Positions 36,992-40,073 of a stretch of 64,000 bases of DNA are shown here, piece after piece. Under the pieces are notes generated by a model, which was not told where the DNA came from, searched no databases, and saw only the letters and a program-made list of their open reading frames with translations. This DNA comes from Acidobacteriota bacterium (GTDB lineage Bacteria; Acidobacteriota; Terriglobia; Terriglobales; Acidobacteriaceae). Both the position numbers and the translations under genes were made by a program. Position 1 is the stretch's first letter. Every line of letters begins with the position of its first letter. The stretch lies in the NCBI GenBank assembly GCA_021813745.1, contig JAKAJO010000076.1, positions 1-64,000 of the forward strand, written 5' to 3'.

Positions 36992-37315
36992 ATGGCAGGA
37001 GATATTCAACTTACGTGCAGCGATTGCGGGCAGGAGTTCATCTTCACCGCTGCAGATCAGGCGTTCTTCCAGGAACGCGGCTATTCGACCCCCAAGCGCT
37101 GCAAAACCTGCCGCATGGCAAAAAAGAACGTCCAAGGCGGCGGAGGCGGATATCGCTCCGCATCTTCGCAGGGTACACCCGTCATCTGTTCGGGCTGCGG
37201 ACAGCCCACCACCGTTCCTTTCGAGCCACGAGGAGACAGGCCTGTCTTTTGCAGGGATTGTTATCAGGCACGCAAGGGTTCGGGCGGCGGTTCACGAGAG
37301 CGGGGACGTTACTAG
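36992..37315 (+). CDS. Double zinc-ribbon protein
   Basis: 107 residues. The first module CSDCGQEFIFTAADQAFF...PKRCKTCR is a zf-trcl-type zinc-binding domain (CxxC ... CxxC), then a Gly-rich linker, then a second module CSGCGQPTTVPFEPRGDRPVFCRDCY with the same four-cysteine spacing, and a Gly/Arg-rich tail (SGGGSRERGRY). Proteins like this are common in Acidobacteria and Deltaproteobacteria and may bind RNA or DNA; function is not known. A GAGGAG sits six bases before the ATG. It is followed by a 12-bp hairpin that probably ends the transcript. Confidence 0.8.
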   Translation: MAGDIQLTCSDCGQEFIFTAADQAFFQERGYSTPKRCKTCRMAKKNVQGGGGGYRSASSQGTPVICSGCGQPTTVPFEPRGDRPVFCRDCYQARKGSGGGSRERGRY

Positions 37316-37445: not shown

Positions 37446-39371
37446 CTAGTGCCGTTTTTTAGCCGTCTTTTTCGTCTGCGATTTTGGCGAATGCGTTGGT
37501 TTGGATGACTTCGCCACCTTTTTGACCGACTTGACGATGGCCTTATGAGCCGCTGGCTTGTGTGCCGCTTTGTGGACAGGCTTGGGTGCTGGCCTTGGCG
37601 CTGGCTTGGTCTTCGCGGCTTTCACTGGCTTGAGACTGGGCTTCGGAGCTGGCTTTGTCGCCGTCTTGGACGTTGCAGGACGCGCTGATTCTCCCCTCAC
37701 AGGATTTGCCACTTCCTTCTGCTTCGACTTTTCCGCTGTCTGCCTGGAGGCCACAGGCTTCGACTCCTTTGACTCTACCTTGGCAACTTCTGCCTTAGTC
37801 CCGGACTTGGCTTTTGCGGCCGGCGCTGGAGCGGTATTAGAAGCGGATTTCGACTTTCCGCGAGCAGGCTTGACTTCTTCCTCTTCTTCGGATTCCTCTT
37901 CGCTTTCCAGATCCTGATCCAGATCGTCTTTGCCGAGTCCGAGGTCAAGCTCATCCTCGTCGCCACTGATATCGTCCAAGTCGGTCTCTTCGATGTCCTC
38001 TTCGCTCTCGTCCTCATCCTCGAAGGAGCGTTCCTTGACCTTGGCCTCCGCGCTACGTTTGACTCGGCTCCGCTTGATGGTGATCTGCGGTGGAGGCGCC
38101 GGGGGCGAATAGGGTTCGAGGAAGGCCTTCGTCTCTTCGGGCGTCGTAAGCTTGCCATCGATAAGTTGCAGAAAGATCTGTTCCAGAAGCTCGCCATACT
38201 TCGGCAACTCGGGGGTAATCCGCATCTCCTGCATTTGCGCGTACGGAATCCTCTGCCGCGCCTCAGGCCAGACACGCAGGAATTGCTCATAGCGGTTCCT
38301 GACGGCCGCATCCTTTGCCGTGAAACCGAGCCAGAGTACAGCCTCAGGGTCGTACGTGGTAAAGAGCTTGTAGCAGGCTGAAGGAGTCTGGTGATCCTTG
38401 GCTGCCAGTTGCTTGGCAAAGGCCGCCGCAATCGAGTCGAGACTATTCCACTCTTCCACGAAGCCGGGGCGCAGCATGAGCTTTTTGAGCGCGGTCAGAT
38501 CCTTGGACGGAAGCTTGGCGGTGAGCAATTGCATCTGCGCCGCGGACATGTCAGGATGCACACCCTGCGCGAGCAAATCCACGGTGAGATCATGGAGCGC
38601 CTTGAGCTTCTCTTCGTCGACCCTGGCCGAGGTCCAGCTTGGAAAGAGCAGCTTCATCCAGCCTTCGGCCTCGTGAGCGCGCATCACCTTTAAGCCGTCA
38701 TCTTCATGTCCGATTTGTTCCAGCTCGCGACTGCGCTCGTGCGCGGAAAGGTGCTCAATCACACCTTCTTCCTTGGCGTTGTCGTAGCGCTGCTGGGTGC
38801 GGGGATCAAGTTCCCATCCGAGGCGGGCGCGATACCGAGTGGCACGAATCAGCAGAGACGGCTGCTCCAGAAACCCGTAGTTGGAAACCAGGCGGAGGGT
38901 GCGGGCCTCAATGTCGGCTGCGCCATTGAGTGGATCCATCAACAGGCCGAAGGAACCCTCATTCAGGGAGATCGCCATCGCGTTGACGGTGAAGTCACGA
39001 CGGCGAAGATCGTCCTGAATGGAAGAAGCGTGAAAGGCAGGCTTGCCAGGTTTCGGATATTCGCAGCGGTGGGTGCTGACCAGATCCACGCGAACCGTGC
39101 CGGGAAAGCACAAGTAAAGGGACCGGGACTCGGAGTCGTCTCCCCAGACCTTTGCGCCGAGCTTTTCGAGGGGCTTACGGAGCTTGAGCGCATTCCCCTG
39201 GATGGCAAGCTCCAGGTCGCGGACTGCGTGACCGCTGGTCAGGTCGCGAACAGCATCTCCGGTGAGAAAGAGGAGCAAACCTGCTTCCCTGGCTGCTTCC
39301 CGCAAGTGACGCAAGGCGCTCTGCTGGTCGGCGGAGAGCCGGTTTTCAAGAAGGTAAATGTAGTCGGGCAT
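37446..39371 (-). CDS. CCA-adding/poly(A) polymerase-family nucleotidyltransferase with acidic and lysine-rich tail
   Basis: 641 residues. The N-terminal half is a class II tRNA nucleotidyltransferase: TGDAVRDLTSGHAVRDLELAIQG (nucleotide-binding G-[GS] motif with Asp in place of the second Gly, then D-x-E), RVDLVS, the QDDLRRRDFTVNAMA block and the LIRATRYRARLGW RNA-binding helices. From about residue 430 the protein changes: an acidic run rich in Glu and Asp (about 445-500), then about 140 residues of Lys/Ala/Pro/Thr, very like histone H1 tails. Normal enzymes of this family end near residue 420. It adds CCA or A tails to RNA; the tail is described under findings. Confidence 0.85.
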   Translation of the reverse strand: MPDYIYLLENRLSADQQSALRHLREAAREAGLLLFLTGDAVRDLTSGHAVRDLELAIQGNALKLRKPLEKLGAKVWGDDSESRSLYLCFPGTVRVDLVSTHRCEYPKPGKPAFHASSIQDDLRRRDFTVNAMAISLNEGSFGLLMDPLNGAADIEARTLRLVSNYGFLEQPSLLIRATRYRARLGWELDPRTQQRYDNAKEEGVIEHLSAHERSRELEQIGHEDDGLKVMRAHEAEGWMKLLFPSWTSARVDEEKLKALHDLTVDLLAQGVHPDMSAAQMQLLTAKLPSKDLTALKKLMLRPGFVEEWNSLDSIAAAFAKQLAAKDHQTPSACYKLFTTYDPEAVLWLGFTAKDAAVRNRYEQFLRVWPEARQRIPYAQMQEMRITPELPKYGELLEQIFLQLIDGKLTTPEETKAFLEPYSPPAPPPQITIKRSRVKRSAEAKVKERSFEDEDESEEDIEETDLDDISGDEDELDLGLGKDDLDQDLESEEESEEEEEVKPARGKSKSASNTAPAPAAKAKSGTKAEVAKVESKESKPVASRQTAEKSKQKEVANPVRGESARPATSKTATKPAPKPSLKPVKAAKTKPAPRPAPKPVHKAAHKPAAHKAIVKSVKKVAKSSKPTHSPKSQTKKTAKKRH

Positions 39372-39560: not shown

Positions 39561-40073
39561 ATGGCCTCTTTACGTAAGCCCGTGATAGTGCGGAAGTTCA
39601 GCCGGGAATGGATCGCCGGATATGCGGGAGCTGGTTTTGACCGCAATGCGCCCACGCTCGAACTGCTGGACACAGGCGGCAGGGTGATCTCGATGACCTG
39701 GGAGGCGGTAAAGTGGGTCTGTTTTGTGCGGGAGCTGTCGATCGGGGATCCGAACCAGCCGGAACGCCTGCTACAAAAGCGCTTTGCGGTGCGTCCCCGA
39801 ACGCCTGGGCTCTGGTTACGCATGATTTTGATAGACGGCGAGGAACTGGAGGGTGTGGCAGCAAATGACCGCTCTCTGGTCGAGGGCCATGGATTGATGT
39901 TGATTCCGCCGGACACACGCTCGAACACGCAGCGGATTTTTGTGCCAAGGCAGGCAATCCAGACGCTGGAAGTACTGGCGTTGATTGGGGTGGCGCGGCG
40001 GCGCCACACTGATGCCGGCAGGACTGCAGAGCAGTCCGAGCTCTTCCCTGCCGAGAGTGCGGGTGAGTCCTGA
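39561..40073 (+). CDS. Conserved hypothetical protein, possibly DUF6982-like
   Basis: 170 residues, no signal peptide, no membrane segment. A basic start (MASLRKPVIVRKFSREWIAGY) is followed by alternating beta-strand blocks (TLELLDTGGRVISMTWEAVKWVCFVREL, GLWLRMILIDGEELEGVAAND, RIFVPRQAIQTLEVLALIG). The pattern resembles a duplicated small barrel, and I recall similar acidobacterial proteins under DUF6982, though I cannot confirm this. It lies upstream of lpxD by about 50 bases, same strand. No function is proposed. Confidence 0.7.
   Translation: MASLRKPVIVRKFSREWIAGYAGAGFDRNAPTLELLDTGGRVISMTWEAVKWVCFVRELSIGDPNQPERLLQKRFAVRPRTPGLWLRMILIDGEELEGVAANDRSLVEGHGLMLIPPDTRSNTQRIFVPRQAIQTLEVLALIGVARRRHTDAGRTAEQSELFPAESAGES

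Follow-up and report, generated by a model that had tools for sequence, protein, structure and literature searches.

CCA- and A-adding enzymes are usually regarded as housekeeping proteins in which the catalytic and base-reading residues hardly change. The described systems closest to the gene considered here are the class II A-adding enzyme of Aquifex (1vfg/4wby, a structure entry that we take to be the A-adding enzyme AaL), represented among curated models by NF041569, and the class II CCA-adding enzyme of Thermotoga (3h37/3h38), together with the canonical CCA enzyme encoded near tsaD. For the Thermotoga enzyme, the available text of PMC3925840 gives Asp55, Asp57 and Asp99 as the three catalytic carboxylates and Asp174 and Arg177 as the base-reading pair. 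The gene at 37446..39371 on the minus strand of the window (the whole stretch of 64,000 nucleotides that was analyzed) has the core fold and the best curated model in common with the A-adding enzyme, and the head-neck-body arrangement and motif B (RRDFTxN) in common with the CCA-adding enzymes. It differs from the former in its altered GG, DxD and EDxxR motifs, in an additional charged tail and in having no counterpart to the N-terminal DHH/CBS part of the long A-adding form, and from the latter in the missing Pfam matches to PolyA_pol_RNAbd, HD and NucTran2_2 as well as in changed carboxylates and a changed base-reading pair. We describe it as a derived class II tRNA nucleotidyltransferase paralog that bears a charged tail; a literature search of titles and abstract openings returned nothing on this paralog in Acidobacteria.

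The open reading frame starts with ATG, runs from 39371 to 37446 and gives a product of 641 aa, while the plus-strand frame across the same interval holds several stops. The earlier note had placed a nucleotidyltransferase core in this frame (naming no strand), and this assignment holds: the PolyA_pol head domain PF01743 covers residues 34-160 (E 1.5e-16, 61.4 bits against a cut-off of 23) and is the only domain above cut-off in a Pfam scan of the 641-aa protein. The core comprises residues 1-430 (38082..39371, minus strand), which AlphaFold2 models as head, neck and body with a pLDDT of 92. The closest PDB structures found with VIA-align are the Thermotoga CCA enzyme 3h38 (Z 23.6) and the Aquifex entries 4wby and 4wc2 (Z 23.1 and 22.4), each to be read with a large overall rmsd of 13-18. 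The PolyA_pol head and the head-neck-body arrangement place the protein in the class II tRNA nucleotidyltransferase/PolyA_pol superfamily, and its core contains the near-invariant arginines R42, R125, R176, R179 and R183. The gene was found in 57 of the 59 genus genomes, its own genome counted; the two from which it is absent (G030 and G066) are each 84% complete. Many of the compared genomes are MAGs, and named relatives among the best ortholog matches include Occallatibacter savannae and Terracidiphilus gabretensis.

As to ancestry, the best NCBIfam model for this gene is the A-adding model NF041569, matched only over model positions 453-869 of 880 and with 114.9 bits against a cut-off of 1440, so that the score falls short of what the full-length form demands. 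The core part of the same model is also the best match for one sister-family ortholog, one class-level ortholog and one ortholog with an intact site, and two canonical-type proteins match CCA models best. Long A-adding-type homologs from other Acidobacteriota form the nearest group in a midpoint-rooted tree. The NCBIfam/Pfam scan covered 5 of these 11 long homologs; all five match NF041569 best with 575.5-816.7 bits (below the cut-off of 1440), all five carry DHH and DHHA1, and four carry CBS. Their core begins at residue 351-580 in 10 of 11 cases, the remaining one being cut by a contig end. On these family models, an origin of the paralog in the A-adding branch appears well supported.

Whether the genome has a second, plain CCA enzyme had been put forward as a check in the earlier note, and the answer differs between the genus and this assembly. 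Of the 32 genus genomes with a completeness of at least 90% and a contamination of at most 5%, 29 carry a second PF01743 gene (counted by eye), and where it was read in one relative it encodes head, RNA-binding, HD and C-terminal domains. The flexible loop and the HD motif of the canonical CCA enzyme are found in 18 of 18 family copies examined. Since the loop is retained, with the motif DGR[RH]P in all 18 copies, and the available text of PMC7014341 gives its deletion as the hallmark of bacterial CC-adding enzymes, the second enzyme is ruled out as a CC-adding partner. The canonical CCA gene was not found in this assembly, and neither was tsaD, whose sole trace is a weak match of 26 bits. Where the two genes were read, in four relatives, cca lies near tsaD, adjoining it in three and separated by another long ORF in G026, and the other two genomes without a canonical cca (G012 and G079) lack tsaD as well. 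Because cca is missing together with tsaD, an assembly gap is the simplest and a likely explanation, and a true absence of the CCA enzyme from this genome was judged unlikely; a real loss of the cca/tsaD segment is also conceivable. The cysS gene, which is near cca in some relatives, has another neighborhood both here and in the close relative G026, and hence does not serve as a gap marker. CCA is encoded at the end of all tRNA genes read (30 of 48 loci), which means that nucleotide addition is probably a repair task. In the four relatives read (loci L215-L218) the canonical cca is divergent and sits beside or near tsaD, apparently a lasting pair of tRNA-maturation genes.

To compare the active sites, 176 heads were aligned: 109 family orthologs, 13 sister-family, 7 wider-class, 11 long A-adding-type and 36 canonical-type. 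The canonical-type set consists of the heads of the second gene (36 rows, 35 distinct, two rows being the same gene), 108 of the 109 family cores are distinct, and loci L002-L031 were omitted to prevent doubles of named loci. At position 54, Asp is present in 40 of the family orthologs and Glu in the other 69, the latter forming what we call the rewired clade, which includes this gene. When a difference is counted as fixed at 85% or more on both sides, only 5 of 423 positions separate the 69 from the 40 orthologs, namely G39D, D54E, E96D, R173L and K360R. Three of these five serve catalysis or base reading, and a fourth is a glycine of the GG motif.

The structure-match alignment equates positions 52, 54, 96, 170 and 173 with Thermotoga Asp55, Asp57, Asp99, Asp174 and Arg177. 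At residue 39 (39255..39257, minus strand), the family alignment places Asp where the second Gly of GG would stand (TGDAVRD). This replacement of GG by GD, already pointed out in the earlier note, is not a one-off: Asp is found in 65 of 69 rewired cores and Gly in all 40 other family cores, which rules out a sequencing error, and Gly or Ser occupies the position in 3 of 67 rewired rows. Asp39 comes with Glu54 in 65 of 65 distinct cores. Residues 52-54 (D-L-E; 39210..39218, minus strand) hold the first two catalytic carboxylates in the head alignment and correspond to the canonical DxD, which is present in all 36 canonical-type rows (35 distinct) and in all 11 long A-adding-type rows. In the rewired clade, position 52 is Asp in 28, Glu in 37, Gly in 2 and Ala in 2 of the rows (acidic in 65 of 69), and position 54 is Glu in all 69. 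The third catalytic carboxylate is residue 96 (Asp; 39084..39086, minus strand), which aligns with Thermotoga Asp99 as that residue is described in the available text of PMC3925840; it is Asp in 58 and Asn in 6 of 67 rewired rows and Glu in 37 of 40 other family rows, the remaining 3 of these 40 intact rows and 3 of the 7 class rows being non-acidic (Ser or Ala in the former, Ser in the latter). This gene departs from the GG and DxD of motif A, and each of its three carboxylate positions is acidic (D52, E54, D96).

Motif D is changed as well. The base-reading Asp and Arg of EDxxR are Gln and Leu in this gene (E-Q-P-S-L, residues 170-173 being Q-P-S-L in the family alignment; 38853..38864, minus strand). 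Position 173 is Leu in 61 of 69 rewired rows against Arg in 39 of 40 other family rows, with Arg in 4 of 67 rewired rows, and 11 of the 40 intact-site family rows have Glu or Gln at position 170. Positions 96 and 170 are weaker evidence because intact relatives vary there too, and this variability within the intact set means that the whole paralog line is looser than the canonical enzymes. GG, DxD, both base-reading residues (Asp, Arg) and, in motif B, Asp and Asn are present throughout the canonical-type and long rows. Motif B reads RRDFTVNA in this gene, in agreement with RRDxxxN, and its R125, D126 and N130 are invariant in 109 of 109 family rows.

A tree of the family cores, built on 107 of the 109 rows (67 rewired and 40 other, two partial rows being omitted), recovers the rewired clade as monophyletic, with the 67 of 67 Glu54 leaves together at a support of 0.995. 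The same clade has an SH-aLRT of 100 in a thinned, midpoint-rooted tree of 107 rows, which takes in one in three of rows L062-L117 and 5 of the 36 canonical ones, leaves out the fragment L158, and has outer branches that are long and partly open. The clade corresponds to Terracidiphilus/Occallatibacter/Acidicapsa. In the rewired part of the tree there were 13 changes at position 52 (76% of sites changed less), compared with one in the other part; positions 169, 170 and 173 underwent 10, 15 and 6 changes there, compared with 0, 5 and 1 elsewhere. Inside the rewired clade there are no changes at position 54, R125, D126 or N130, and 3 at D39. The first carboxylate and the base reader have been released, whereas D39 and E54 are held, and this holding makes the pattern one beyond simple decay and leaves room for a rebuilt metal site. 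The core is under strong purifying selection: when the ten closest pairs from each clade are compared, dN/dS is 0.03-0.14.

The sister family (13 rows) departs further from the canonical site. Its first carboxylate is acidic in none of the 13 rows (T/S/H/F/V/L), the motif B Asp is replaced by Gly in all 13 (RRD to RRG), and the third carboxylate is Arg in all 13; at the second, 10 rows retain an acidic residue. The gene is kept in 13 of the 14 genomes there. Judging from these residues, the sister family has lost the site independently and more completely than the rewired clade, and its proteins can hardly be active. At class level (n = 7), the six rows with a readable head all have GG and DxD, and one row has Gln at 170.

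Strong selection on the core, a site that is changed or apparently destroyed and a normal CCA enzyme alongside make a job without A or CCA addition the most likely one for this paralog. The reading that we prefer, tentatively and at a little under an even chance, is that an A-adding-type paralog no longer carries out canonical A/CCA addition and survives chiefly by binding RNA. On this view the gene descends from an old duplicate in the A-adding branch that is kept across Acidobacteriaceae beside the ordinary CCA enzyme, and in the Terracidiphilus/Occallatibacter/Acidicapsa clade its site was rebuilt: GD replaced GG, mostly [D/E]xE replaced DxD, Asp took the place of Glu at the third carboxylate, and the base-reading Asp/Arg pair was lost. 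The comparisons themselves establish the paralogy and conservation of the gene, its residue changes, the purifying selection, the predicted disorder of the tail and the canonical enzyme of the relatives, whereas the loss of canonical activity, the binding of RNA and the part played by the tail are inferences. A folded core with conserved arginines suggests RNA binding, and the head-neck-body scaffold together with these arginines would probably bind RNA (tRNA-like acceptor ends). What speaks against such a reading is that R125, D126 and N130 of motif B and E54 do not vary, leaving much of the catalytic apparatus untouched.

It is on this point that the main rival draws, according to which the protein is a rebuilt active transferase in which D39, [D/E]52, E54 and D96 still bind metal and, the base-reading pair being lost, another nucleotide, or any nucleotide, is added to RNA 3' ends; we consider this possible, if rather unlikely. 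D39 and E54, with 3 changes and none, are held too tightly for simple decay, which favors a rebuilt working site, and the invariance of motif B agrees with one. A D-x-E pair also occurs in kanamycin nucleotidyltransferase, and D54E combined with E96D resembles a carboxylate swap. In the available text of PMC3925840, mutation of the two base-reading residues permits other nucleotides to be added, and Glu59 is named as the first carboxylate in the class I enzyme of archaea. A working site fits less well with the Gly or Ala at position 52 in 4 of 69 rows and the Asn at position 96 in 6 of 67, and the sister family keeps its gene even with a seemingly destroyed site. The GG motif is expected beside the triphosphate, and the extra Asp introduced there likewise counts against a transferase.

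The preferred reading, of a mainly RNA-binding protein, also takes in the tail. More than 200 codons had been described beyond about residue 430, first a Glu/Asp patch and then a Lys/Ala/Pro/Thr stretch, and the frame bears this out, with 211 aa beyond the core that form an acidic part followed by a Lys/Ala/Pro-rich part. A Pro-rich linker with a basic end, YSPPAPPPQITIKRSR, covers residues 421-436 in the alignment of orthologs (38064..38111, minus strand), and its motif type occurs in 57 of 109 family orthologs against 0 of 13 sister-family rows. The acidic half follows at about residues 450-499 by charge-window count (37875..38024, minus strand; Glu/Asp-rich), and residues 501-641 form the Lys/Ala/Pro/Thr-rich half, recognized by its composition and basic end, with the C-terminal end KSQTKKTAKKRH (37449..37871, minus strand). 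Residues 437-641 are predicted to be disordered: they show zero secondary structure and a pLDDT mostly of 33-46 in a full-length model built with 8 sequences, in which the head part 102-169 is poor too.

The comparison with relatives that had been proposed for the tail shows it to be kept in kind and charge. In every one of the 106 Acidobacteriaceae orthologs whose tail could be read (106 of the 109 family orthologs entered the tail statistics, three rewired rows being omitted), the second half has the more positive charge. Two basic residues (K/R/H) close the chain in 65 of the 66 rewired tails and in 38 of the 40 other family tails. An acidic patch, defined as a 30-residue window with a net charge of -8 or lower, is present in all 66 rewired tails against 18 of the 40 others. 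As a control, 502 ORFs with a length of 250 aa or more were taken from the window and the flanks of 80 named related loci, spurious frames included; a Lys/Ala/Pro-type C-terminus was found in 76, and all 76 are this gene. A local accident and a proteome-wide habit are both ruled out as the source of the tail, which is family-wide and, among these long ORFs, confined to this gene. One exception among the genus loci is L015, outside the 109 counted, with a tail of 339 residues and a non-basic end. Sequence change is faster in the tails than in the core, and their alignment is poor (dN/dS of 0.05-0.56 against 0.03-0.14 in the ten closest pairs per clade, one tail dS not being computable). Long A-adding-type homologs elsewhere in the phylum stop 9-23 residues past the core in 11 of 11 cases, and sister-family rows run for 14-197 residues past it. 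The sister-family orthologs in which the site is apparently destroyed are L142-L145, L147, L151-L156, L159 and L160; part of them carry basic tails, of up to 197 residues.

The earlier note had taken tail and GD in combination as a possible mark of a changed job. The altered active site fits this suggestion, but tail and GD are separate features and not one package, because the 40 orthologs with GG and Asp54 carry basic tails too. The changes that travel with GD are D54E, E96D, R173L and a stronger acidic patch, and these accompanying changes, which had gone unmentioned, are the stronger evidence. By composition and predicted lack of structure, the tail shows the Lys/Ala/Pro-rich disordered region of histone H1-like tails, and we assume the composition of the bacterial protein AlgP to be like it. 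The stretch here differs from AlgP-like proteins, themselves also named H1-like in the available text of PMC9239181, in being fused to a folded nucleotidyltransferase core with an acidic patch in front. Such a tail suggests extra electrostatic contacts, and the disordered acidic-then-basic region would allow weak, multivalent interactions with RNA, DNA or ribosomes.

That the protein simply adds A or repairs CCA ends as an ordinary enzyme, its low-complexity tail being neutral, its changes tolerated and its job unchanged, seems improbable to us. The fold and the closest solved structures are those of CCA- and A-adding enzymes, the best NCBIfam model is an A-adding one (though far below cut-off), the core is under purifying selection, and the faster-evolving, poorly aligned tails would agree with neutrality. 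However, the 36 canonical-type and 11 long rows are uniform in GG, in DxD and in the base-reading Asp and Arg, all of which are altered here, the tail is kept in kind in every readable ortholog, and 29 of the 32 good genus genomes have a second, canonical enzyme. A poly(A) polymerase tailing mRNA is very improbable, since the PolyA_pol head domain shared with PcnB and the separate CC-adding, A-adding and poly(A) enzymes of Geobacter (available text of PMC8208693) are offset by pcnB models far below cut-off and by the PAP I signature given in the same text, [LIV][LIV]G[RK][RK]Fx[LIV]h[HQL][LIV] (any residue at h), occurring in 0 of 109 family orthologs.

The surroundings of the gene were compared for seven window genes. 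A DUF6982 protein identified by Pfam is encoded divergently at 39561..40073 on the plus strand; it lies near this gene in 71 of 80 named loci, divergently in 70 of the 71 and at a median distance of 227 bases, and this conserved adjacency could reflect a shared regulator or pathway. At 36992-37315 on the plus strand, a 107-aa protein with two zinc-finger-like domains (zf_Tbcl and zf_Tbcl_2/CxxC-x17-CxxC) ends just downstream of the gene, and was seen in 14 of the 80 named loci, whose flanks are short.

The mainly RNA-binding role that we prefer can be carried further, to a bacterial family of tRNA-nucleotidyltransferase pseudoenzymes in which the site was lost or rebuilt twice independently within one order, and which is selected beside the CCA enzyme as an RNA-binding organizer with an acidic-basic, H1-like tail that may form condensates; as a whole, we regard this wider proposal as doubtful. 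The intact, rebuilt and apparently destroyed sites constitute a natural series within one bacterial order, built on the same scaffold and all retained. This series makes it testable what the scaffold does without nucleotide addition and how a protein-templated base-reading pocket is retuned. For the rewired clade and the sister family, names assigned from the domain alone (CCA enzyme, poly(A) polymerase) are untrustworthy.
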